Source of the DNA: Meloidogyne chitwoodi
Taxonomy: Eukaryota > Nematoda > Chromadorea > Rhabditida > Meloidogynidae
DNA: 64,000 bases
Assembly: GCA_015183035.1 (NCBI GenBank)
Contig: JACZZP010000014.1
Location: 310,001-374,000, forward strand
Reading direction: 5' to 3'
Shown here: piece after piece, positions 4,643 to 62,110 of the stretch
Layout of the letters: every line of letters begins with the position of its first letter
How positions within the stretch are numbered: the stretch's first letter is position 1
Translations under genes and position numbers: made by a program
The notes under the pieces: model-generated
Databases searched by the model: none
What the model saw: only the letters and a program-made list of their open reading frames with translations
Told to the model about the DNA's origin: nothing

Positions 4643-5396
4643 AGTTTATATTTTGTTTATTGTTGTTGATTTTTTTAAGAAATTTTTTTTAAATTAATTA
4701 ATTTTATAATTTTCAATTTTTCTGAGTTATTTATTTATTAAAAATTGAAAGAAAACAGTCTTTAATTTTATATTTTAGTTAATAATGTAAAGCAGTTAAA
4801 AAATAAATTATAAAATAATATTTGTGTTTAAAAATGTCTAGAACACGTATTTAAAAATAAAAAATATATTTAAAATATGTGGCAAATAAAATAAATGTTT
4901 GCTTTAAATAAATATTAAATTTATGGTAAGAATAAGTTTTCTGATGATGAAATTTAAAGTTTTGTTTAATAAATTGATATCAACCAAATTAATCAAGGCC
5001 TTTTGATCAAAACTGAAAAAATGGTGTTAAATCAATTGAGTTATCTTCAGGGTATTTAGAGAAGCTGATCGTAGAGGTTAATTTATAGTTTTACACATTT
5101 ATAAATTTTTTTTAAATAAATAAAGCAGTTCACTTTAGCAAAATCAAAATAAAATAAAAAAGATTAAAGAATAAATTTAAAAAATAAACTTTATACACAA
5201 TATTCACGTGAAAAATAAATTAAATATTAAAATTTTACAAGAGGAATTAACTGAATATTTTTTTTAAAGGAAAAGCTGCTGCGTGGCATGTTATGTTGTC
5301 ATTTCAAGAAAGCATTAAGGTATATAAAAGCAATGAAAAATATGAACAAAACATTCACATACAAAACACAAAATTAATTGTGTTGAGAAAAGAGAG
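4643..5396. other. Intergenic region
   Basis: AT-rich sequence with no ORF or RNA gene seen. Its 3' end holds the promoter of the mucin-like gene at 5397. Confidence 0.6.
5321..5330 (+). promoter_or_regulatory. TATA box of mucin-like gene 1
   Basis: TATATAAAAG lies about 70 bases before the ATG at 5397. TATATAAG boxes occur at the same distance upstream of the two paralogues (58052-58061 and 62111-62119, both minus strand), so this is a shared promoter element. Confidence 0.65.
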
Positions 5397-7202
5397 ATGA
5401 AAGGAATTATTTTAATACTCCCAATAATCTACTCTTTAATAAATTATATTGTTGGACAAACATGCGAACCACCGACAACAGAGCCTGTGTGTTATTGTAA
5501 ATGTGAATCAACACCTGGAGTTTCAACAATAACTCCAACAACAACAGTTGGACCAACAGGAACAAGGACAACAGGTACCCCAGGATCGACTGAATCTTCA
5601 ACACTAGTTCACTCTACTGGGGGACCAACAGCTACCCCAGCATCGACAGAAGCAACAGGTTCAACTGGACCATCTGAAGGAACAACAGCTACCCCAGCAT
5701 CGACAGAAGCAACAGGTTCAACTGGACCAACAGGACCGACTGGAGCACCAACTGGAACCCCAGCATCGACAGAAGCAACTGGTTCAACTGGACCATCTGA
5801 AGGAACAACAGCTACCCCAGCATCGACAGAAGCAACAGGTTCAACTGGACCAACAGAACCGACTGGAGCTCCAACTGGAACCCCAGCATCGACAGAAGCA
5901 ACTGGTTCAACTGGACCAACAGGACCGACTGGAGCTCCAACTGGAACCCCAGCATCGACAGAAGCAACTGGTTCAACTGGACCAACAGGACCGACTGGAG
6001 CACCAACTGGAACCGCAGCATCGACAGAAGCAACTGGTTCAACTGGACCATCTGAAGGAACAACAGCTACCCCAGCATCGACAGAAGCAACTGGTTCAAC
6101 TGGACCAACAGGACCGACTGGAGCTCCAACTGGAACCCCAGCATCGACAGAAGCAACTGGTTCAACTGGACCAACAGGACCGACTGGAGCTCCAACTGGA
6201 ACCCCAGCATCGACAGAAGCAACAGGTTCAACTGGACCAACAGGACCGACTGGAGCTCCAACTGGAACCCCAGCATCGACAGAAGCAACTGGTTCAACTG
6301 GACCAACAGGACCGACTGGAGCACCAACTGGAACCCCAGCATCGACAGAAGCAACTGGTTCAACTGGACCATCTGAAGGAACAACAGCTACCCCAGCATC
6401 GACAGAAGCAACTGGTTCAACTGGACCAACAGGACCGACTGGAGCACCAACTGGAACCCCAGCATCGACAGAAGCAACTGGTTCAACTGGACCATCTGAA
6501 GGAACAACAGCTACCCCAGCATCGACAGAAGCAACTGGTTCAACTGGACCAACAGGACCGACTGGAGCTCCAACTGGAACCCCAGCATCGACAGAAGCAA
6601 CAGGTTCAACTGGACCAACAGGACCGACTGGAGCTCCAACTGGAACCCCAGCATCGACAGAAGCAACTGGTTCAACTGGACCATCTGAAGGAACAACAGC
6701 TACCCCAGCATCGACAGAAGCAACAGGTTCAACTGGACCAACAGGACCGACTGGAGCTCCAACTGGAACCCCAGCATCGACAGAAGCAACTGGTTCAACT
6801 GGACCAACAGGACCGACTGGAGCACCAACTGGAACCCCAGCATCGACAGAAGCAACTGGTTCAACTGGACCATCTGAATCATCAACTGAAGAAACTGGCA
6901 CACCTGGACCATCAACAGGTACATATGGACCATCAAAAAGCACTCCTCGACCATCAAAAAGTACCTACAGACAAACTAAATCAACAACTCCAGTTCCCTC
7001 TACTGGAGCACCATCTGCAACCCCAGTATCAACTGAAGAAACCAGTACTAAGGCTACAACTCCAAAATGTAAATAATTATTTTAAAAAATTAATTACTAT
7101 TCTTTTACTATTTTAGTGTGTTGCAATTACCTTAAATGCAAAGTGTGCAATAAATATCAGACTTGTGCTGGATATAAAGGTTTCCCGGATCCATGTACTT
7201 GA
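5397..7202 (+). CDS. Secreted mucin-like T/S/P/G repeat protein 1
   Basis: No named family recognised. Exon 1 is 5397-7068 and exon 2 is 7117-7202, giving about 585 residues. The start is the ATG at 5397. Residues 1-20 ([20 protein letters not shown]) are a signal peptide. A short Cys-containing head follows ([20 protein letters not shown]). About 480 residues of Thr/Ser/Pro/Gly repeats come next, with two alternating units: a 22-residue type ([20 protein letters not shown]) and a 19-residue type with [17 protein letters not shown]. The small second exon encodes a Cys-rich tail, [16 protein letters not shown] then [11 protein letters not shown]. Without the splice the frame stops at once (AAATAA). 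The composition predicts heavy O-glycosylation and a surface or secreted mucin. Paralogues lie at 55588-57989 and 59781-62039. DNA between repeats is nearly identical, which points to recent expansion. Confidence 0.85.
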
Positions 7203-9277: not shown

Positions 9278-9793
9278 CTAATAACATTGTTTAGTTTTTG
9301 GATTACATTTATATCCTTTAGGGCATGGTTTATATTCACAAGAATATGATGGTTTAGTAGTAGTTTTGGTAATAGTTGTTGTTTTAGTAGTTGAAGGTAT
9401 AGGGTAGCATATACGATCCTTAAAGTTACATTTGTAACCATTAGGACAGATGCGTCCTCTAAAACATGGAATCCGTTTTGGTGTTGTTGGAGGGTTTGGA
9501 GTAGTTATAGGGTAACATATGCGATTATAACACTCATAACCTTTAGGACATAAAAATCCTCTGTAACAGTAAAAAGGTGTTGTGAGAGTAGTTGGAGCTG
9601 TAGTAGTAGTCTTAGGGTAACATATTTTAGAAATTGGGTTACATTCATAACCTTTAGGACAAGGTACATATTCACATCTAGGTGGAGGTGGAATTAATCC
9701 ATAAGCAGAGATTACACAAAACAAAATAATTGACAACACCTTTTTTTAAATTTTTAAATTAAATTTTTATTTTTAAATTTAAATTACCTTCAT
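9278..9793 (-). CDS. Small secreted Cys-module protein 1
   Basis: Not a named family. Exon 1 is only ATG AAG (9793-9788); a 48-base intron follows; exon 2 is 9739-9278, about 155 residues in all. The start was chosen because the same ATGAAG|GTAA micro-exon precedes two paralogues, while exon 2 opens with GTG, not ATG. A signal peptide (MKVLSIILFCVISAYG) is followed by four modules of the form C-x(3-6)-CPKGYEC-x(4-6)-CYP (one variant CPNGYKC), joined by Thr/Pro linkers. Each module has four cysteines in about 20 residues, suggesting two disulfides each. It is a lineage-specific secreted protein; an effector or surface role is inference only. The 5' part is duplicated in inverted orientation in the gene at 12252. 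Confidence 0.8.
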
Positions 9794-10868: not shown

Positions 10869-11210
10869 TTAGTAACATAGAAAAAAATTTAGAATACATC
10901 CATAGCCTTTAGGGCATAGTTTATATTTACAAGAATATGATGGTTTTGTAGTAGTAGTAGTTGTTGGAGCTGCAGTTGTAGGTATAAAGTAACATATGCC
11001 CTTATAACATTCATAACCTTTGTGACAATAAGGTTTATATTTATTACAGTAAATTGGTTTTGGTGTTGTTGGAGTAGTTGTAGTACTATTAAGGTAACAT
11101 ATTCCAAAATAACATTCATAATCTTTAGGACAAATAGGTGTCGTTTTACAGAAAATTGGTGGTTCCCATCCTGACACAGAGAATATACAAAACAAAATAA
11201 TTATCAACAT
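10869..11210 (-). CDS. Small secreted Cys-module protein 2 (start codon moved)
   Basis: About 113 residues: signal peptide (MLIIILFCIFSVSGW), then three Cys modules (CPKDYEC, CHKGYEC, CPKGYGC) with Thr/Pro linkers. Unlike its paralogues, it opens with an ATG at the first codon of what is elsewhere exon 2 (GTG or GTT in the relatives). The ancestral micro-exon survives near 11491-11510, but its ATGAAG reads ATAAAG, and a solo LTR sits between it and exon 2. The gene seems to have lost its old start and gained a new one. Whether it is still expressed cannot be seen. Confidence 0.68.
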   Translation of the reverse strand: MLIIILFCIFSVSGWEPPIFCKTTPICPKDYECYFGICYLNSTTTTPTTPKPIYCNKYKPYCHKGYECYKGICYFIPTTAAPTTTTTTKPSYSCKYKLCPKGYGCILNFFLCY

Positions 11211-11250
11211 CTTTTTAAATTTATTTAAAAATTAAATTTTATTTTTAAAG

Positions 11251-12107: not shown

Positions 12108-12434
12108 TATAAATAAATATATTAATATAAAATAAAAATAATTAAAGCAATACAAATCAGTTTATTATTTAATTATTATTATTTAAATAATTCTAAGAAA
12201 AATTAAAAAATAATTAAACAAATAACAACAAATAATAATAATTTAATTAAAATGAAGGTAATTTAAATTTAAAAATAAAAATTTAATTTAAAAATTTAAA
12301 AAAAGGTGTTGTCAATTATTTTGTTTTGTGTAATCTCTGCTTATGGATTAATTCCACCTCCACCTAGATGTGAATATGTACCTTGTCCTAAAGGTTATGA
12401 ATGTAACCCAATTTCTAAAATATGTTACCCTAAG
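12108..12434. repeat. Right arm of the inverted gene duplication
   Basis: Reverse complement of 9611-9938, nearly identical. It covers the promoter, micro-exon, intron and start of exon 2 of the plus-strand gene at 12252. Confidence 0.8.
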
Positions 12435-12869
12435 ATTATTACAACTCCAATTCCTCCAACAACACCAAAACCAATTATTTACTGTCAAAAATATAAACCT
12501 TATTGTCCCAAAGGTTATGAATGTGACTTCTATAATAATAAATGCAACCCTATTTTCACTACTACAACTCTCAACCCTTATTCCTGTCGACCTTTTAAAT
12601 ATTGTCCTCCAGGATATAAATGTAATCCATTAACTCTTAAATGTTATCCAATCACAACTCCAATTCCTCCAACAACACCAAAACCAATTATTTACTGTAG
12701 TAAATATAAACCTTATTGCCCTAAAGGTTATGAATGTGTCTTTTATATTGGCAAATGTTACCCTATAATTACTACTAAAATACCATTATATTCTTGTAAA
12801 TATAACTTATGCCCCAAAGGATATTATTGTAATACACAAACTTATATATGTTACAAAATTTATATTTAA
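12252..12869 (+). CDS. Small secreted Cys-module protein 3
   Basis: Exon 1 is 12252-12257 (ATG AAG) and exon 2 is 12306-12869, about 189 residues. The signal peptide and first module are the same as in the 9278-9793 gene. Downstream the two differ: here there are five modules (CPKGYEC, CPKGYEC, CPPGYKC, CPKGYEC, CPKGYYC), each followed by C-Y or C-N, with linkers such as TTPIPPTTPKP. A repeated block (linker plus module, about 210 bases) shows that modules are gained by internal duplication. Confidence 0.8.
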
Positions 12870-14637: not shown

Positions 14638-15050
14638 TTTTAAAATTAAATCACCTAACATAAATGACTTTAAAAAATTAATTTTTTTTAATTGTTTATA
14701 TTATTTATTAGTGTTCGTCCCCTTTCCTCAGGCGGGTATTTGACTCAAAAAACACAAAAGTATCCCCTGAGTTATTCTAGTTAATAATCTCCCTCCATCC
14801 ACGGCGCGTCACCCTGTAACATTTCTCTTCCCCATTCCCCATTAAAGCCCTGATATACGGGGACGAATCCCACTATTTATGTCAATTAATTCTATAAATC
14901 ACGAAAAAATATCAAAAAACAACAACAAATCTATTATATATTTATTTCAGAATATTAACTTTTACAAAATTACAATCAAGTCTTTTTAATGAAAGAAATT
15001 TTTCAATATAATTAAATAGTGATATATTATCACCTTTTGTTAAAAATAAC

Positions 15051-15704
15051 TTAAGGATAAGGAACATAGCAGACGCTACTTTCGTAATTACATTTATAGC
15101 CTTTAGGGCAATCAACATTATAATTACAGAAATAAGGTGTTGTAGGTGGAGTTGTTGTAGTTGTGGTGGTTGTTGTTGGGGGTTTGGTTGTTGGTTTTTT
15201 AGTTGTAGTTGGATTGGATATTTGGTCGTTGGTTTTTTGGTTGTGGTTGGGGTTGTGGTGGTTGTTGGGGTTGTTGTTGTAGTTGGGGGTTTGGTTGTTG
15301 GTTTTTTGGTTGTAGTTGGATATTTGGTCGTTGGTTTTTTGGTTGTTGTTGGGTATTTGGTGGTTGGTTTTTTGGTTGTTGTTGGGGTTGTGGTGGTTGT
15401 TGGGGTTGTTGTTGTAGTTGGGGGTTTGGTTGTTGGTTTTTTGGTTGTAGTTGGGTATTTGGTGGTTGGTTTTTTGGTTGTGGTTGTAGTGGTTGTTGGA
15501 GTTGTGGTTGTCGTAGTTGTTGTGGTTGTAGTGGTCACAGGTTTGCATACCTTATATTCACATACAAAACCATAAGGGCATGGATTATATTCGTCACAAT
15601 CTGGATATGCCACAGCCATTTGAATGACAGATATTATACATAAAAGAATTGCCAAAACCTTAAATTTATTTAATTTAATTAATCTAAATAAATATTACCT
15701 TCAT
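15051..15704 (-). pseudogene. Small secreted Cys-module protein 4, frameshifted
   Basis: Same gene plan as its relatives: micro-exon ATG AAG (15704-15699), a 40-base intron, then exon 2 from 15658. The signal peptide (VLAILLCIISVIQMAVA) and one module with CPYGFVCEYKVCKP are followed by a long Thr/Lys/Pro repeat (TTTKKPTTKYPTTTKKPTTK type). At 15211-15220 a 5-base unit (GGATT on the plus strand) is tandemly doubled compared with the same repeat near 15315. This shifts the frame. The conserved last module (CNYNVDCPKGYKC...) lies in the other frame and ends at 15051, while the open frame runs on to 14942 without cysteines. It may be a real null or altered allele or a base-call error. Confidence 0.65.
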
Positions 15705-17412: not shown

Positions 17413-17542
17413 ATAAATTAACCAAATATTTTAATTTTAGATTCTCTTTTCCTTTTTAAATTATAGCATCGAGATAGAGAAATAATAAATAAAAGAGAGT
17501 GAATGTTTTAGTCTTTTTCTCTTTTTAAAAAATATTTTATTT

Positions 17543-17554
17543 CTTGTCTAAAAT
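17543..17554 (+). promoter_or_regulatory. Putative PSE of SL RNA copy C
   Basis: CTTGTCTAAAAT starts 57 nt before the leader, the same position as CTTGCCTAAAAT before copy A. The inverted arm has the same motif before copy D. Confidence 0.55.
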
Positions 17555-17599
17555 ATATTAATTATTTAATCATTTAATTTGATTTTCCAGACATTCTTT

Positions 17600-17700
17600 G
17601 GTTTAAATACCCAATAAAGAGGTAGATAATTAAAGCTCTCTTAAGAGTGGCTACCTTTTCGGGTTAAATTTTGGAATTGCCTTGCCTTAATGGTGAGGTT
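17600..17700 (+). ncRNA. Divergent spliced-leader RNA gene (copy C)
   Basis: The leader (17600-17621) has the SL1 start GGTTTAAATACCCAA, but positions 16-19 are TAAA instead of GTTT before the same GAG end. The donor is GTAGAT. Stem I is maintained by different pairs: ACCC with GGGT, and GGTAG across the splice site with CTACC. Stem II is CTCTTAAGAG, the Sm site is AAATTTTGGAA, and the 3' stem is CCTTGCC/GGTGAGG. All SL RNA parts are in the right order and spacing, so it looks functional although the leader is not SL1. No SL2-type start is present. Confidence 0.85.
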
Positions 17701-17887
17701 TAAAATAATTAATAAATCGTTTGTGTGTTTCTCATGGTTTGCTTAGAATTTATCCCCACTATAGTGATGTCACAGATCTCTTTTTTAATTATATACAACA
17801 CATCAGCCATAGATTAAGGCTTAATTTATCTCAATTCTGAAATAACCACAATCTCCTAACTAAAACTTTAAATTTAATTAAATTTTA

Positions 17888-17988
17888 AGCCTCACCATTA
17901 AGACAAGGCAATTCCAAAATTTAACCCGAAAAGGTAGCCACTCTTAAGAGAGCATTAATTATCTACCTCTTTATTGGGTATTTAAACC
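17888..17988 (-). ncRNA. Divergent spliced-leader RNA gene (copy D)
   Basis: Mirror copy of 17600-17700. The leader (17988-17967) is identical to that of copy C. The body differs at only a few bases, for example TAATGCTCTC against TAAAGCTCTC, and GCCTTGTC against GCCTTGCC in the 3' stem, where a G-T pair still forms with GGTGAGGC. Sm site AAATTTTGGAA is intact. Confidence 0.85.
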
Positions 17989-18182
17989 AAAGAATGTCTG
18001 GAAAATCAAATTAAATGATTAAATAATTAATATATTTTAGACAAGAAATAAAATATTTTTTAAAAAGAGAAAAAGACTAAAACATTCACTCTCTTTATTT
18101 ATTATTTCTCTATCTCGATGCTATAATTTAAAAATAAAAATCTAAAAAGAGAGTCTAAAATTAAAATATTTGGTTAATTAAT

Positions 18183-49863: not shown

Positions 49864-52051
49864 TTAATAGCCTGGTGGTGTTCTTGGCTTCGGACAGTGA
49901 TCTAAAAAAGGGAAAATATTTTATAAAATTGTTTAAAACTTACCACAAGATCCAACAGATCCATTAGGTCCTGGAGGGCCTTGAGGCCCGTGTTGGCCAG
50001 GTTTTCCATATGAGCCAGGATTTCCTTGGATAAATAAAAATTATAAAATAATTTTATTATTTTTTACCTTGATCGCCTTGAGGTCCTTGAGGTCCAGGCT
50101 CTCCTGGTTTACCTGAGAAAATGTTAAAATTTAAATAAAATTAATCTATTCCTTTAAATTTAAGTTAAAAAATTTTTTTAAATTAAATTACATAAAAAAT
50201 TCGTGGTCGCAGAGATTCGAACTCTGGCGGGGAAACCCCATCTGATAACTGTAATTTAGCATTCAATCATTGAATACTTCCATTTAGCAGTCAGACGCCT
50301 TAACCACTCGGCCACGACCACTGCACACATAATTCTCTTTTTATTTATTAAATACTCTCCATAAAATTATTATACAGTAAAAAAGTGATATAACAAACCT
50401 TTTTCGCCTGGAGGTCCTGGTAATCCCGGTGGTCCCTAAAATTATTATTAAATTTTTTAAATTGTTTTTCAAAAATTCAAAATTTATTTTTCAAATTTAA
50501 AATAAATTATTAAAATTTTCTCCCACCATTTCACCAGGTCTCCCTGGTGGTCCAGGGGGTGCAACTCCTGGTACATGCTTTCCTGGTTCTCCCTGTAAAT
50601 AAAATAAATATTTACCCAACGATATATTAAAAATGCTGTAAAATCCCTCACTTTATCGCCTGTCCTTCCAGGCATTCCAGGTGGTCCTTGTGGACCTTGT
50701 TTTCCGGTAGGTCCCCTTGGACCAGGCTTTCCAGCTGCTCCAGGCTCTCCTTGTTCTCCAGGATATCCTTTTGGTCCTTTATCTCCTTGGCTTCCAGGTG
50801 GACCTGGTGGCCCTTGAGGACATTCACGAACGCAAGGAGTAGCAGGCGCTGCTGGTGGGGCATCTAAAATAAATTAAAAAAATTTAAACCTAATTTTTGA
50901 AGCAGTGTATACCTTGCCCGGGTTGTCCATTCTGTCCAGGAGAACCGTCTGTAGATTAAAAAAATATTATTTAAAATTTGTCTTTAATTTTTTTACCTTT
51001 TCCTGGTGTTCCATCAGTGCCTGGATCTCCTGGAGGACCTGCAGGGCCAGCCTGACAACCACAACCTATTATATTAAATTTGTAAAAAAATTAAATTTTA
51101 TTTAATTCACTCACATTGCTCTCCACCACCAGTAGCAACAGGCGCTGAAGCTACTGGAGCAGAAGGGGCTGCTGCATAATTTGTAGCTGCAGAAGAGGAT
51201 TCTGACTGGAAAATAGATTATTAATTTTAATAAAAAATAAACTTTAAAAATTGTTTTTTTAATTGTAAAGAAATTAAAATTAACTGCTTCAGATGCTGCA
51301 GTATATGATGATGCTTGTTGTCTTCTAATTTCTCTTCCTTGTAGAGGAATATTATTATTCCCGTCTTGAATAAAATGTCCAAAAAGCCATCGTCCATTGC
51401 CATTAGCAGATGTGCTGCTTCGTTTAAGTCGGTTAACGTGTTCAATTTGGCCTTTACTTGTTTGAACACCAACAACTTCTGACCAGATATGACGATTACT
51501 GCTCTGAAATTATTTTTAAATTTAAATAATCTATAAAATGACAGACTCGACAAAAGTCAATGTCGTTACTAATAGAAGATTGAACCCGCTGAATATATTG
51601 ACAAGCAATTGGCATTAGTAAAACGCAAGCTAACATTGAAACTGTAGAAAGGGCAACAGCAACAAAAGCAATGCGTCGAAAATGCCTATATAAAATTGTA
51701 AACTTAAATTTGCAAACTTGATATTTTTAAGTTTAATTAAGCTGCTTTATAAACTTTATATTTTTAAGTTCTGATTTATAAACCTGAAAAATTATTTTAC
51801 AAACTTAATAAATTTTAATAAACTTGAAAAAAGACATTCTTTTTTATTTCATTTTACAAACTTGATAAAATCAGAATTTTCTTTAAATAAACATTTGTTA
51901 ATCTTTATTTTTAAATAAAATTCTGTTTTAATAAAATAAACATTAAATCAGAATTTTCTAATAAAATATAGAAGAATTAAATAAATTTTTATTACCTTAG
52001 GTCATTTTCACTGAATTCGCCTGCTTTTGTTTTATCCAATTGAGTGGTCAT
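49864..52051 (-). CDS. Cuticle collagen
   Basis: Structural protein of the nematode cuticle. The start at 52051 ([19 protein letters not shown]) follows directly on a TTTTCAG acceptor. A hydrophobic segment ([20 protein letters not shown]) belongs to the nematode cuticle collagen N-terminal domain. A subtilisin-like cleavage site, NRLKR, follows. The Gly-X-Y region then runs through many short exons: [20 protein letters not shown], an interruption with Cys ([16 protein letters not shown]), the long block [19 protein letters not shown] onward to [14 protein letters not shown], and later [13 protein letters not shown] and [19 protein letters not shown]. The tail [18 protein letters not shown] has two Cys for cross-linking. 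The stop is at 49864. More introns than most C. elegans collagens, and one houses a tRNA gene. Confidence 0.9.
50202..50321 (-). tRNA. tRNA-Ser(GCT) with an intron
   Basis: The acceptor stem GTGGTCG (50321-50315) pairs perfectly with CGACCAC (50209-50203), with discriminator G. The D arm is TGGCCGAGTGGTTAAGGC. The anticodon stem TCTGA/TCAGA encloses CTGCTAA with anticodon GCT (50288-50286). A variable arm typical of serine tRNA (GGGGTTTCCCC) and a T arm CAGAG-TTCGAAT-CTCTG follow. An intron of about 34 nt follows the base after the anticodon. It lies in a collagen intron on the same strand. Confidence 0.93.
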
Positions 52052-54251: not shown

Positions 54252-57200
54252 ATGTCAAGAATTCATTGTTTTCGCTATAACAGAAAAGCCCTTTCATATA
54301 CAATTTTGAGTTTTGTAGAAGCATTTCCATGTTGCAGCAGAGTTTATTCTACTTCAAAGTTTAATATAGGATTAATTCAAAAAAGAATAGGAAAAGTTGT
54401 TTGTCAACGTTTTTTTGGCACTTCAGGCCAAAAAAATTTATACGAAATTCTCGAGGTTAACCAAAGTGCAAGTCAGGATGAATTAAAAAGTGCTTTCTAT
54501 AAACTTTCCAAAAAGGTTTAATTTTTAAAAATAATTTCGTACATTTATTTTTAATTTTAAGTATCATCCAGATGTTTCTGGTTCAAGTGAGGAGTCAAAT
54601 AAAAAATTTGTTGAAATTTCTAATGCTTATGAGACACTTAAGGATGAAAAGGTTTTTATTTTTTTCAGGCAATTTAAAATTATTTAAAAAATGTAACCAA
54701 AAAATATTTTTTTAATGAAGATAAACGTTTTAATTTATTTTTTGATTTAGAAGCGTAGAGAGTATGACTTACAATTAGCTGGAGGTTATCGGAGACCAGA
54801 AAGTACTGCTAGGGAAAGAGGACAGCCGACATGGAGCACTGACTTTCATCCTCGCCCTCCATTTAAAACTCAGCAATGGGAAAGGGAATGGAAATGGCAA
54901 TTTGGTGGATCTGAACGGCAAAGGAAACGTCCATTTTCTCCATTTGATGACCTTTTTGGAGGACCTCCACCTCGTGATGCTTCACCTTTTGAGCGATGGC
55001 AGTGGGATCAAGAACGAGTAAGAAGGCAATGGACAGAATGGGAATGGGGACAAGAAATTGAAAGAAGAAAACGTGAAGAAAAGGAATTAAATGAGGTTTG
55101 TATTTTATAAAAAATAAAAATGTTGAACAACATCCGTGGGACCTTTATCCACGGAATGGACGTAGGGGAATGAAATTTAAAAGATTTCCTCGTTAGACTT
55201 ATAATTTTTCTTTAACAATTCTGATTCCTTTAATTGAATATGTTCTAATTGTTAGATTAAATTGGGAACATTTAGGCTTGTACTTATCCAGTTTAGGTAT
55301 CCATCCCATTTATTCGCAGGAAAATATTTTGTCTTTTAGTCATTTTTTGGTGTAACTATTTTCTTGCGAATAAATGGAATATCTAAACTTGGAAGTTACG
55401 ACTATTATAAGGGAAACGTTGTAGACTTATAAGGATTTAAATCTCATAACTTATTGAGTGTAAAAAATGAATAGAAAAATAATTTAATCTAATTAATAAA
55501 TTTATCAAAGCTAAAAACTACAAGTGTTTTTAAAGTATTTAGACTACATAACATGATAATCTACTTAAAATTTATTATCAGATCATTTTATACACAAGGA
55601 TTGGGAAATCCTCCATATCCTTTGCATTTTTGGTAACCATTACAAACTTGGCAAGTAAAGTAATTGCAGCACACTGAAAATGGAAATTCTAATATTTTCT
55701 ATTGTTTGAAAAGAATTTACGTTTTTTAGTAGTTTGAATTGGTTTGAATGTAGTAGGAATGGAAGTTGTTGGCTTGTTTGATGGTTTTGTTGATTTGGAA
55801 GAGGGACTTGCAGTACTTGATGGAGCGGGTGAAGATGATCCAGTTTCTTCTGTTGATCCTGGAGTTGCAGTTGGTCCTCCAGTCGGTCCGGTTGGTCCAG
55901 TTGAAGCAGTTTCTTCAGTTGATCCTGGAGTTGCAGTTGGTCCTCCAGTCGGTCCGGTTGGTCCAGTTGAGCCTGTTGCTTCTGTCGATACTGGAGTAGC
56001 TGTTGGTCCTCCAGTTGGTCCGGTTGGTCCAGTTGAAGCAGTTTCTTCTGTCGATACTGGAGTTGCAGTTGGTCCTCCAGTCGGTCCGGTTGATCCAGTT
56101 GAGCCTGTTGCTTCTGTCGATACTGGAGTAGCTGTTGGTCCTCCAGTTGGTCCAGTTGAACCAGTTTCTTCAGTTGATCCTGGAGTTGCAGTTGGTCCTC
56201 CAGTTGATCCAGTTGAGCCTGTTGCTTCTGTCGATACTGGAGTAGCTGTTGGTCCTCCAGTCGGTCCGGTTGGTCCAGTTGGACCTGTTGCTTCTGTCGA
56301 TACTGGAGTAGCTGTTGGTCCTCCAGTTGGTCCGGTTGGTCCAGTTGAGCCTGTTGCTTCTGTCGATACTGGAGTTGCAGTTGGTCCTCCAGTTGGTCCG
56401 GTTGGTCCAGTTGAAGCAGTTTCTTCTGTCGATACTGGAGTTGCAGTTGGTCCTCCAGTCGGTCCGGTTGATCCAGTTGAGCCCGTTGCTTCTGTCGATA
56501 CTGGAGTAGCTGTTGGTCCTCCAGTCGGTCCGGTTGGTCCAGTTGGGCCTGTTGCTTCTGTCGATACTGGAGTTGCAGTTGGTCCTCCAGTCGGTCCGGT
56601 TGGTCCAGTTGGGCCTGTTGCTTCTGTCGATACTGGAGTAGCTGTTGGTCCTCCATTTGGTCCGGTTGGTCCAGTTGAAGCAGTTTCTTCAGTTGATCCC
56701 GGAGTTGCAGTTGGTCCTCCAGTCGGTCCGGTTGGTCCAGTTGAGCCTGTTGCTTCTGTCGATACTGGAGTTGCAGTTGGTCCTCCAGTTGGTCCGGTTG
56801 GTCCAGTTGAAGCAGTTTCTTCAGTTGATCCTGGAGTTGCAGTTGGTCCTCCAGTCGGTCCGGTTGATCCAGTTGAGCCTGTTGCTTCTGTCGATACTGG
56901 AGTAGCTGTTGGTCCTCCAGTTGGTCCAGTTGGTCCAGTTGAACCAGTTTCTTCAGTTGATCCTGGAGTAGCTGTTGGTCCTCCAGTTGGTCCAGTTGAA
57001 CCAGTTTCTTCAGTTGATCCTGGAGTTGCAGTTGGTCCTCCAGTTGATCCAGTTGAGCCTGTTGCTTCTGTCGATACTGGAGTAGCTGTTGGTCCTCCAG
57101 TCGGTCCGGTTGGTCCAGTTGGGCCTGTTGCTTCTGTCGATACTGGAGTAGCTGTTGGTCCTCCAGTCGGTCCGGTTGATCCAGTTGAGCCTGTTGCTTC

Positions 57201-59017
57201 TGTCGATACTGGAGTAGCTGTTGGTCCTCCAGTTGGTCCAGTTGAACCAGTTTCTTCAGTTGATCCTGGAGTTGCAGTTGGTCCTCCAGTCGGTCCGGTT
57301 GGTCCAGTTGAACCAGTTTCTTCAGTTGATCCTGGAGTTGCAGTTGGTCCTCCAGTTGATCCGGTTGGTCCAGTTGAGCCTGTTGCTTCTGTCGATACTG
57401 GAGTAGCTGTTGGTCCTCCAGTCGGTCCGGTTGGTCCAGTTGAGCCTGTTGCTTCTGTCGATACTGGTGTAGCTGTTGGTCCTCCAGTTGGTCCGGTTGG
57501 TCCAGTTGAGTCTGTTGCTTCTGTCGATACTGGTGTAGCTGTTGGTCCTCCAGTTGGTCCAGTTGAGCCTGTTGCTTCTGTCGATACTGGAGTAGCTGTT
57601 GGTCCTCCAGTTGGTCCGGTTGAACCAGTTTCTTCAGTTGATCCTGGAGTTGCAGTTGGTCCTCCAGTTGATCCGGTTGGTCCAGTTGAGCCTGTTGCTT
57701 CTGTCGATACTGGAGTAGCTGTTGGTCCTCCTGTTGGTCCGGTTGGTCCAGTTGAGCCTGTTGCTTCTATCGATACTGGTGTAGCTGTTGGTCCTCCGGT
57801 TGGTCCAGTTGAGCCTGTTGTCGTTGTTCCTGTTGGTCCAACTGTTGTTGTTGGAGCTATTGAAGACACTCCAGGTGTCGATTCACATTGACAATAGCAT
57901 ACAGGAGGTGTAGTTGGTGGCTCGCATGTTTGTCCAACAATATAATTTATTAATGATAGGATTATTGAAAGAATAATTATTCCTCTCATCTTTCTTTTTT
58001 CAACAATTTTTTTGTTGTGAATTTAATATTTTCCTACTCTTTTTTCAAAGCTTATATATACATTTTGTTTATTATCTATTAACTAACCTTTTATTTTTGA
58101 TGCAAAAATTTATTTATTTTTTATTCATGTGGCATTTTTCATGTGAATTTATCAGAATTTTGTGTTTTAAAATTTTGACTTTCAGTTTTTTCTTGTCATC
58201 TCAAACCTTTTTATTTCTTTATTTTGTTTTATTATTTTTTTGCTTGCTTTTTTTATTTGTTTAATAATATTTCTTTGACCAAACTTTTAAAAATTTTATT
58301 CTGTAAACAATTTTTTGTCAATTTACTCTCCTTATTTTAACGTGTTTTTTTTTTAAACGTGTATTTTTAAAATAATTTTATTGTATATTTTGCTAACAAT
58401 TTTTTAGTAATATTTTTGATTTCATAGCATTCAAATTTTATTTTTATTTAGTTTTATTATTAGTTGTATATATTTTATTAAACTGACTATAAACTCCAAA
58501 CTGCATTTTTCAGAGAGATAAAAAAGATCATTGTTAATATAATTAATAAAGTCAAATCCAACTATTTATTTATCTTTCATCATTTAGGCCATATTACTTT
58601 AAGGATTTGAATACTAACAATTTTTCATTAAATTAAATTTTTTAAAATATATATTATTTAAAACAGAGTAGATGAATTTTAAAACCGAGATACAGTATTT
58701 TTCCTTTTATTTAATAAACTTTAAATATCTATTTTAAAAATTAAAATTTTCTTAAACAAAATTAATTTTTTTACCCTAAGTTATGGATTAAACTACGAAA
58801 AGAATTTCAAGAAAAAAATAAAGAAGAATTTGATAAAATTCGTAGCAATCTCTCTGAAAGAGAATGGCGTGAAAGAGAACAACTTCTTTGGGATATGGCA
58901 TATTCAAAATGGGTAGAACAAAAAGAAAAAATTAGAGAAGATGAGCGTACAAGAACACAACGTAGCGTAATTATATTTCATTTAATTTTGTTAATTCTGA
59001 TATTGTTCTTTTTATGA
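54252..59017 (+). CDS. DnaJ (Hsp40) protein with C-terminal membrane anchor
   Basis: A J-domain co-chaperone that stimulates Hsp70 ATPase. Exons: 54252-54515, 54562-54651, 54751-55095 and 58781-59017. The N-terminal about 70 residues are basic and hydrophobic (possible mitochondrial targeting). The J domain starts [20 protein letters not shown] and has the HPD motif in YHPDVSG, ending [17 protein letters not shown] Trp/Arg/Glu-rich middle ([20 protein letters not shown]) continues into the last exon ([37 protein letters not shown]) and a C-terminal membrane helix ([15 protein letters not shown]). The plan resembles DNAJC4/DNAJC30-type proteins. The last intron (3.7 kb) contains a complete mucin-like gene on the other strand. 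The final exon was joined because composition, frame and splice sites agree. Confidence 0.8.
55285..55395. repeat. Small hairpin repeat
   Basis: CAGTTTAGGTATCCATCCCA...TTTATTCGCAGGAAAATA is followed by its near reverse complement (TATTTTCTTGCGAATAAATG). About 110 bases, MITE-like, in the DnaJ intron. Confidence 0.6.
55588..57989 (-). CDS. Secreted mucin-like repeat protein 2 (nested gene)
   Basis: Exon 1 is 57989-55721 and exon 2 is 55673-55588, about 784 residues. The signal peptide is [19 protein letters not shown]. The head [20 protein letters not shown] keeps the paralogue cysteines. A repeat tract of more than 600 residues has 22- and 19-residue units such as [20 protein letters not shown], with PGSTEETG variants. 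A Lys/Ser/Pro spacer ([17 protein letters not shown]) precedes the splice. The second exon gives [16 protein letters not shown] then [11 protein letters not shown]. The whole gene lies inside the last DnaJ intron on the opposite strand, with its own TATA box. The antisense ORF of 715 codons is a by-product of the stop-free repeat. Confidence 0.85.
58052..58061 (-). promoter_or_regulatory. TATA box of mucin-like gene 2
   Basis: GTATATATAAGC on the minus strand, about 65-70 bases before the ATG at 57989, the same place as in the two paralogues. Confidence 0.6.
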
Positions 59018-59780: not shown

Positions 59781-62039
59781 TTAATATTTATTAACGCAAG
59801 GACGAGGGAATCCACCATATCCAGCACATTTCTGATTTTCTTTGCATACCTCGCATTTAAGATAATTGCAGCAAACTGTAAAATGAGTTTTGTAATTATT
59901 TAATTTAAATAAATTATGTTTACGTTCTGGAGTAGTGGGTTTAAGAGTTGATCCTGGGGTTGCAGTTGTTGGTCCAGTAGAGGGACCTTGTTTTGTTGAT
60001 TTAGTTTGTCCAGGAGTGCTTTTTGATGGTCGGTAAGTACTTGTTGAAGGTCCAGGTGTGCCAGTTTCTTCAGTTGATCCTGGAGTTCCAGTTACTGGTC
60101 CAGTTGAGGGACCTTCTGTTGAAGATTCAGTTGATCCTGGGGTAGCTGTTGATGGTCCAGTTGTGCCAGTTTCTTCAGTTGATCCTGGGGTTCCAGTTGG
60201 TGCTCCGGTAGAGGGACCTTGTTTTGTTGATTTAGTTTGTCCAGGAGTGCTTTTTGATGGTCGGTAAGTACCTGTTGATTGTCCAGGTGTGCCAGTTTCT
60301 TCAGTTGATCCTGGAGTTCCAGTTACTGGTCCAGTTGAGGGACCTTCTGTTGAAGATTCAGTTGATCCTGGTGTAGCTGTTGATTGTCCAGTTGTGCCAG
60401 TTTCTTCAGTTGATCCTGGAGTTCCAGTTACTGGTCCAGTTGATGGACCTTCTGTTGAAGATTCAGTTGATCCTGGTGTAGCTGTTGATTGTCCAGTTGT
60501 GCCAGTTTCTTCAGTTGATCCTGGAGTTCCAGTTACTGGTCCAGTTGATGGACCTTCTGTTGAAGATTCAGTTGATCCTGGAGTAGCTGTTGATGGTCCA
60601 GGTGTGCCAGTTTCTTCAGTTGATCCTGGAGTTCCAGTTACTGGTCCAGTTGATGGACCTTCTGTTGAAGATTCAGTTGATCCTGGGGTAGCTGTTGATG
60701 GTCCAGGTGTGCCAGTTTCTTCAGTTGATCCTGGTGTTCCAGTTACTGGTCCAGTTGAGGGACCTTCTGTTGAAGATTCAGTTGATCCTGGGGTAGCTGT
60801 TGATGGTCCAGTTGTGCCAGTTTCTTCAGTTGATCCTGGGGTTCCAGTTGGTGCTCCGGTAGAGGGACCTTGTTTTGTTGATTTAGTTTGTCCAGGAGTG
60901 CTTTTTGATGGTCGGTAAGTACCTGTTGATTGTCCAGGTGTGCCAGTTTCTTCAGTTGATCCTGGAGTTCCAGTTACTGGTCCAGTTGAGGGACCTTCTG
61001 TTGAAGATTCAGTTGATCCTGGTGTAGCTGTTGATTGTCCAGTTGTGCCAGTTTCTTCAGTTGATCCTGGAGTTCCAGTTACTGGTCCAGTTGATGGACC
61101 TTCTGTTGAAGATTCAGTTGATCCTGGGGTAGCTGTTGATGGTCCAGGTGTGCCAGTTTCTTCAGTTGATCCTGGAGTTCCAGTTACTGGTCCAGTTGAT
61201 GGACCTTCTGTTGAAGATTCAGTTGATCCTGGGGTAGCTGTTGATGGTCCAGGTGTGCCAGTTTCTTCAGTTGATCCTGGAGTTCCAGTTACTGGTCCAG
61301 TTGATGGACCTTCTGTTGAAGATTCAGTTGATCCTGGGGTAGCTGTTGATGGTCCAGGTGTGCCAGTTTCTTCAGTTGATCCTGGAGTTCCAGTTACTGG
61401 TCCAGTTGAGGGACCTTCTGTTGAAGATTCAGTTGATCCTGGGGTAGCTGTTGGTGGTCCAGGTGTTTCTTCAGTTGATCCTGGAGTTCCAGTTACTGGT
61501 CCAGTTGATGGCCCTTCTGTTGAAGATTCAGTTGATCCTGGGGTAGCTGTTGATGGTCCAGTTGTGCCAGGTTCTTCAGTTGATCCTGGAGTTCCAGTTA
61601 CTGGTCCAGTTGATGGACCTTCTGTTGAAGATTCAGTTGATCCTGGGGTAGCTGTTGATGGTCCAGGTGTGCCAGTTTCTTCAGTTGATCCTGGAGTTCC
61701 AGTTACTGGTCCAGTTGATGGACCTTCTGTTGAAGATTCAGTTGATCCTGGGGTAGCTGTTGATGGTCCAGGTGTGCCAGTTTCTTCAGTTGATCCTGGT
61801 GTTCCAGTTACTGGTCCAGTTGAGGGACCTTCTGTTGAAGATTCAGTTGATCCTGGGGTACCTGTTGTCCTTGTTCCTGTTGGTCCAACTGTTGTTGTTG
61901 GAGTTATTGTTGACACTCCAGGTGTTGATTCACATTTACAATAACACACAGGCTCTGTTGTCGTTGGTTCGCATGTTTGTCCAACAATACAATTTATTAA
62001 AGAGTAGATTATTGGTAGTATTAAAATAATTCCTTTCAT
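59781..62039 (-). CDS. Secreted mucin-like repeat protein 3
   Basis: Exon 1 is 62039-59924 and exon 2 is 59875-59781 when spliced, about 736 residues; unspliced it is 752. The signal peptide [20 protein letters not shown] and the head are almost the same as in gene 1. The repeat unit is different and longer, 35 residues ([20 protein letters not shown] then GSTESSTEGPSTGPV). Three blocks carry Lys-containing spacers (TYRPSKSTPGQTKSTKQGPS). The tail is CCNYLKCEVCKENQKC then AGYGGFPRPCVNKY. The 48-base intron is a multiple of three and has no stop, so it can also be read through. A shared head, promoter and tail with a changed repeat core shows the core evolving separately. Confidence 0.85.
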   Translation of the reverse strand: MKGIILILPIIYSLINCIVGQTCEPTTTEPVCYCKCESTPGVSTITPTTTVGPTGTRTTGTPGSTESSTEGPSTGPVTGTPGSTEETGTPGPSTATPGSTESSTEGPSTGPVTGTPGSTEETGTPGPSTATPGSTESSTEGPSTGPVTGTPGSTEEPGTTGPSTATPGSTESSTEGPSTGPVTGTPGSTEETPGPPTATPGSTESSTEGPSTGPVTGTPGSTEETGTPGPSTATPGSTESSTEGPSTGPVTGTPGSTEETGTPGPSTATPGSTESSTEGPSTGPVTGTPGSTEETGTPGPSTATPGSTESSTEGPSTGPVTGTPGSTEETGTTGQSTATPGSTESSTEGPSTGPVTGTPGSTEETGTPGQSTGTYRPSKSTPGQTKSTKQGPSTGAPTGTPGSTEETGTTGPSTATPGSTESSTEGPSTGPVTGTPGSTEETGTPGPSTATPGSTESSTEGPSTGPVTGTPGSTEETGTPGPSTATPGSTESSTEGPSTGPVTGTPGSTEETGTTGQSTATPGSTESSTEGPSTGPVTGTPGSTEETGTTGQSTATPGSTESSTEGPSTGPVTGTPGSTEETGTPGQSTGTYRPSKSTPGQTKSTKQGPSTGAPTGTPGSTEETGTTGPSTATPGSTESSTEGPSTGPVTGTPGSTEETGTPGPSTSTYRPSKSTPGQTKSTKQGPSTGPTTATPGSTLKPTTPERKHNLFKLNNYKTHFTVCCNYLKCEVCKENQKCAGYGGFPRPCVNKY

Positions 62040-62110
62040 CTCACTCTTTTCTCAACACAATTAATTTTGTTGTGAGTTTTAGTTAATAATGTCTTCTTCA
62101 TATTTTGTTA

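Follow-up and report, generated by a model that had tools for sequence, protein, structure and literature searches.

Sets of SL leaders have been described from several nematodes. In Strongyloides ratti, 19 SL1-like leaders are reported (PMC1657053), and 12 leader kinds are given for Aphelenchus avenae, with GGTTTAAATACCCAAATTTGAG (SL1c) and GGTTTAAATACCCTTTATTGAG (Variant 1) in the table of that paper, whose ESTs also included polygalacturonase homologues (PMC2825203). The repertoire of Heterodera glycines comprises 21 SLs on 2,532 transcripts; their use is described as promiscuous, with 45.5% of the SL-spliced transcripts associated with two or more leaders (PMC6362198). Among root-knot nematodes, five leaders were known for Meloidogyne hapla and at least ten more were found by SLIDR (PMC7986045), M. 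incognita harbors Mi-SL1a and Mi-SL1b (PMC9673304), and SL1M of M. javanica ends in AAG (PMC1657053).

The locus considered here lies in a stretch of 64,000 nt (the window; 28.5% GC). It is best explained as a convergent pair of SL1-variant SL RNA genes that are probably working, a reading to which we assign, judging from the sequence, a probability of about 0.8. A separate PSE-like promoter block would drive transcription of each copy, the presumably capped RNA would be bound by Sm proteins, and the 22-nt leader would be donated to pre-mRNA acceptors by trans-splicing, beside the genome's other leaders, with which it probably has its target mRNAs in common.

Anatomy of the locus

The two SL RNA genes face each other on opposite strands (Table 1). 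Both start with the leader GGTTTAAATACCCAATAAAGAG, which is followed directly by the donor GT (GTAG), the arrangement of a nematode SL RNA with its 5' leader of ~22 nt and subsequent GT donor; the 5' end is a predicted one. Further downstream, AAAUUUUGGAA agrees in both copies with the Sm rule purine-AU4-6-G-purine (PMC6362198). Taken by itself, the Sm string is not a rare one: the window holds 4, against 1.27 expected, and 4 of 100 shuffles contain at least as many. The first 15 leader bases, when up to 3 mismatches are allowed, are not rare either (5 in the window vs 6.85 expected). Four of these five matches are exact and correspond to the four SL genes of the window, which contains a second convergent pair at 2652 (+) and 3052 (-) with leaders ending in GTTTGAG and GTTTAAG. 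Compared with the gene at 2652, the leader in Table 1 has TAAA in place of GTTT at positions 16-19, as the first-pass annotation had stated (hence TAAA leader and TAAA pair in the following), and the stem II, Sm site and 3' stem that it had called intact are present in both copies.

Table 1. Features of the TAAA-leader locus, in window positions.
Feature	Position	Strand	Basis or remark
SL RNA gene, + copy	17600..17706 (3' end approximate)	+	leader, donor, fold, DNA search, covariance model (trained with the + copy)
SL RNA gene, - copy	17882..17988	-	same leader as + copy; 3 differences from + copy
Leader GGTTTAAATACCCAATAAAGAG, 22 nt, donor GT at 17622-17623	17600..17621	+	sequence
Leader of - copy, 22 nt	17967..17988	-	sequence
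PSE-like promoter block of + copy, start at -65 relative to the leader	17535..17565	+	matrix trained without the TAAA lineage
PSE-like promoter block of - copy	18023..18053	-	matrix trained without the TAAA lineage
Intron strand CUACCUUUU-C-GGGU, pairing with leader and donor (stem I)	17651..17664	+	predicted fold, pairing energies
Sm site AAATTTTGGAA, + copy	17666..17676	+	motif search
Sm site AAATTTTGGAA, - copy	17912..17922	-	motif search
3' stem-loop	17679..17699	+	minimum-energy fold
Left inverted arm	17492..17706	.	99% identity to 17882-18096
Right inverted arm	17882..18096	.	counterpart of 17492-17706
Spacer separating the TAAA-leader genes	17707..17881	.	resembles the spacer of the C6:168k locus

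Upstream of both copies stands a PSE-like block shared with other SL genes of this genome. It was scored with a 31-nt matrix trained on 51 genes outside the TAAA lineage; the training set took in the 2652/3052 pair and left out the TAAA pair. Both copies reach 27.9 at -65 and rank in the top four of the 127,940 window positions, these four being the four SL genes, whereas the best non-SL position scores 13.4. Scores of at least 13.3 are found in 51 of 54 SL RNA genes of the genome, partly by construction for those used in training. The next-best PSE-like sites of the window, 11657 (-) and 17112 (-), were considered as signs of a further SL gene and rejected, with no SL RNA recognizable behind them by eye.

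The inner arms of the palindrome measure 215 nt each, are 99% identical and lie 175 nt apart, which places the leader starts at a distance of 388 nt. Three differences separate the arms (gene positions 35, 86, and 100), all of them within the RNA and none in the upstream 108 nt; this is the opposite of what is expected under selection on the RNA, n = 3 being few. Two of the three sit in the 3' stem and keep its pairs (G-U/G-C and C-G/U-G). The outer arms are weaker (83-96%) and reach 17398 and 18197, thereby enclosing the interval 17413-18182 of the palindromic SL RNA pair in the first-pass annotation, which is confirmed. The convergent layout recurs in the genome, with clearly different arms at C6:312652/313052 (400 nt between leader starts) and C6:167933/168327 (394 nt), and with nearly identical copies on contig C20 (about 670 nt). 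Long, almost identical arms at such a short distance could also mean that the palindrome itself is functional, as a hairpin or a source of double-stranded RNA, or that it arose as an artefact of long-read assembly. Both are very improbable in view of the recurring layout, the three inner differences and the diverged outer arms, since an artefact is expected to yield identical arms, and the artefact was rejected on these grounds. For a working gene pair, the arms would have been homogenised by a recent inverted duplication or by gene conversion.

Several other features were noted in the window. Four Cys/Thr-rich reading frames that look secreted and contain CPKGYEC-like repeats occupy 9278-9745 (-), 10869-11231 (-), 12300-12869 (+), and 14942-15694 (-); those at 9278-9745 and 12300-12869 share the same N-terminus on opposite strands, and a protein search with the former returned no homologue at E <= 0.001. 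Long mucin-like reading frames with Ser/Thr/Pro/Gly tandem repeats and a similar signal-peptide-like start are found at 5346-7076 (+), 55689-58022 (-), and 59781-62051 (-). A tRNA gene at 50202-50321 (-) is interrupted at the anticodon arm by ~40 additional nt that probably represent an intron. In the genome, GH28 was detected at 5 places above the cut-off, one of them with stops; together with the genome size (47.5 Mb) and the GC content of the window, its presence suggests a plant-parasitic tylenchine, and it may point to Meloidogyne.

Predicted fold and leader-intron pairing

For both copies, the minimum-energy prediction contains all three stems, i.e. stem I, stem II, and the 3' stem. Stem I comprises ACCC:GGGU and AAGAGGUAG:CUACCUUUU and thus reproduces the replacement pairs that had been proposed for it. 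The accompanying claim of a fold retained despite altered sequence is likewise supported by the predicted stems, and the predicted anatomy is that of working SL RNA genes. Within the changed stretch, bases 16-17 are unpaired and bases 18-19 form A-U pairs. The same fold pairs leader positions 2-6 with 66-70 and thereby covers part of the Sm site, which is single-stranded in the three-hairpin fold of nematode SL RNAs, so this pairing would need to be released before Sm proteins could bind. Compared with shuffled sequences, the fold energies are moderately better (z of -2.32, 5 of 200 shuffles as good, for one copy; z of -1.50, 15 of 200, for the other).

The TAAA leader pairs with its own intron at a calculated -15.3 kcal/mol, a value matched by none of the 52 introns of genes with other leaders. 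Against shuffled introns, 38 of 2000 of which do as well, the pairing is moderately unusual. With leader bases 9-22 and without the donor, 11 of the 52 foreign introns do as well, which leaves the own intron little above average, and with the variable part (position 14 onwards) 28 of 52 do, so that no advantage is left. The calculated strength of this stem is mainly due to the donor and the intron bases (GGUAG), with the changed TAAA pairing weakly.

These pairing energies suggest that, across the genome, leaders and introns vary in concert. Taking one gene per leader type (29 types), the own pairing averages -10.84 kcal/mol vs -8.86 (sd 0.38) for permuted partners, and none of 20,000 permutations is as good; without the TAAA lineage (27 types) it is 1 of 20,000. 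Restricting the leader to bases 9-22 gives 0 of 20,000 whether or not that lineage is included, the variable part 145 (included) and 133 (left out) of 20,000. Since the leader types are related by descent, the result is a strong one that amounts to no formal probability, and in several other genes the own intron pairs no better than foreign introns. Since the alignment of the TAAA pair with the 2652 pair is ambiguous owing to an indel, we make no case for site-by-site compensation between them.

The SL RNA family of the genome

The genome searched amounts to 47.5 Mb. The first 15 leader bases occur exactly at 8 places, 7 of which look like SL RNA genes by eye, and a DNA search with the + copy returned 16 places including the query. 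When up to 3 mismatches were allowed, canonical SL1 matched 43 places vs 1 in the control, several of them not SL RNA genes. The Sm-plus-3'-stem pattern AAATTTTGGAATTGN{10,28}CTTAA likewise gave 43 vs 0 in the reversed control; it catches the - copy and misses the + copy (by one 3'-stem base) as well as the 2652/3052 genes. A covariance model (R1) built on 29 genes including the TAAA pair was run on 71 sources, namely the window and loci fetched from the genome, and yielded 73 matches at E <= 0.1, corresponding to 63 distinct places. An Sm-type motif is present at 60 of these, and 54 of the 60 also show a GGT-type start and an AG|GT donor. These 54 SL RNA genes carry 29 leader types, both numbers being lower bounds for the genome, counted in the window and the fetched loci. 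The most common type is GGTTTAATTACCCAAGTTTAAG (14 genes), followed by canonical SL1 (6 genes); the TAAAGAG leader alone among the 29 contains AATAAA. With so many leaders returned by the family searches, the earlier view of a "second" leader is not borne out and was dropped.

The nearest gene to the TAAA pair is C6:167933, with 88% identity and the leader GGTTTGAATACCCAATAGGAG, which differs in sequence and has the same build. In the tree, whose bootstrap had not converged, it joins the pair at 100/92; nearby are the genes of the 2652/3052 pair, in a group at 99/96 that includes one long-branched gene and whose inner order is not fixed. The resemblance to C6:168k extends over the whole convergent locus including the spacer (80.7% over 678 nt). 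The second gene at C6:168k carries another leader, GGTTTAATTACCCAAGCAAAAG, which suggests that the near-perfect palindrome of the TAAA pair is probably a later product of duplication or conversion. The probable ancestor of the TAAA leader itself was of the GGTTTAAATACCCAAGTTTGAG type and belonged to a small SL gene group on contig C6.

Relative to C6:167933, the whole gene matches at 92 of 103 positions and is conserved least in the leader (18/22 plus 3 gap columns), while a spacer stretch (46/47) comes second only to the Sm region (13/13) among the stretches compared; an RNA more conserved than its flanks was looked for in this comparison and not clearly found. The spacer part 17740-17870, which holds the 46/47 stretch, is returned by a DNA search at three places including itself. 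A leader that has diverged the most would also suit silent or dying copies, i.e. duplicated SL RNA genes whose transcription or use has ceased, and some family members do look decayed (25-60 bits in the covariance model; C25:252412 without a PSE), so that the number of leaders in use may be smaller than the number of types. For the TAAA pair this is unlikely: every part looked for is intact in both copies, they sit on short terminal branches (0.019 and 0.027), and the PSE scores are high in a matrix from which they were held out. Retrocopies of SL-tagged mRNAs were considered as a sign of use and rejected, as CCCAATAAAGAG occurs 9 times in the genome vs 5 in the reversed control; two of the nine are the pair, six others were inspected and have no leader-like upstream part, and the ninth is C29:1982063.

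Two further groups of sequences came up in these searches. Two near-identical small-RNA-like genes, at C1:2390890 (L066:1441-1540, +) and C10:809557 (L085:1498-1597, -), have no leader and share the Sm site and the 3' stem of the family, and by eye a PSE-like block can be made out; for L066, 1 of 200 shuffles folds as well. They possibly represent another Sm-class RNA such as SmY; no Rfam match of that kind was obtained at E up to 1. A dispersed repeat (L058, L104, and L105, at C1:593.9k, C7:611k, and C10:1497k) contains 20 nt of canonical SL1 (TTTAATTACCCAAGTTTGAG), has near-identical flanks and shows no SL RNA after the SL1 stretch; 22 of its bases are also found at C26 and C29. It is possibly an element that captured a leader in the past.

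Relation to described leaders

In the main texts searched, the TAAA leader was not found as a string, and its kind is already well known. Within these texts, the earlier suggestion that no leader with this end had been described holds for the exact 22-mer, which is absent from them like a 20-nt form in RNA letters; it does not hold for leaders of this sort, which are described in tylenchine nematodes. The last 12 leader bases occur in two unrelated papers and the first 15 in the A. avenae paper, within another leader. Since the sequences of the M. hapla variants are in a supplement outside the search, the TAAA leader may be among them.

It is conceivable, and quite unlikely, that TAAAGAG-bearing transcripts form a set of their own or that this leader is used under special conditions. 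The 3' half of the leader is distinct, two copies are kept, and a precedent exists in the alternative leader of M. javanica, reportedly the subject of Koltai et al. (1997), with a title that suggests special conditions, and in the mention of SL1M. The promoter block and the Sm site are, however, of the common family type, and the leaders of H. glycines are described as used promiscuously (PMC6362198). A broader version, in which an unusually large leader set (at least 29) co-evolves with its introns, each leader and its own intron as a unit, and TAAAGAG marks a separate, condition-dependent mRNA set, seems improbable. On the preferred reading of a working SL1-variant pair, the TAAA leader string is worth including in read trimming and 5'-end mapping for this species. 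More useful is the wider picture of one genome whose 54 SL genes comprise at least 29 leader types, with leader and intron apparently changing together, as it makes the question of why tylenchines keep many leaders testable with existing reads.

Compared with Rfam SL1 (RF00198), the TAAA genes likewise have a leader, donor, stem II, Sm site, and 3' stem, yet neither copy (L003) gives a match to its covariance model even at E up to 1; two genes with the canonical leader (L034, L035) score 26.6 and 26.0 bits vs a gathering cut-off of 75. The TAAA leader shares the GGTTT start, the CCCA core and the GAG end with leaders reported from S. ratti and A. avenae. It follows the S. ratti rule (GGTTT, 5-8 nt, CCCA, 5-6 nt, AG), with spacings of 5 and 6 that fall inside both ranges (PMC1657053), and differs from the 12 leaders in the A. 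avenae table, none of which ends in AATAAAGAG (PMC2825203). The most common leader of this genome ends in AAG, as SL1M of M. javanica is reported to do (PMC1657053). Mi-SL1b of M. incognita is described as a satellite repeat (PMC9673304), whereas the SL genes found here are scattered or in small groups. The H. glycines leaders were shown by transcripts, those reported here are known from the genome sequence alone; as far as described, leaders are hypervariable and the Sm site is conserved in that species as well, and its RNA has three hairpins, a shape that the TAAA RNAs may have too (PMC6362198). M. hapla (PMC7986045) and M. incognita (PMC9673304), in the descriptions cited, resemble this genome in harboring several leader or SL gene variants per root-knot nematode, with exon, donor, and Sm site conserved.
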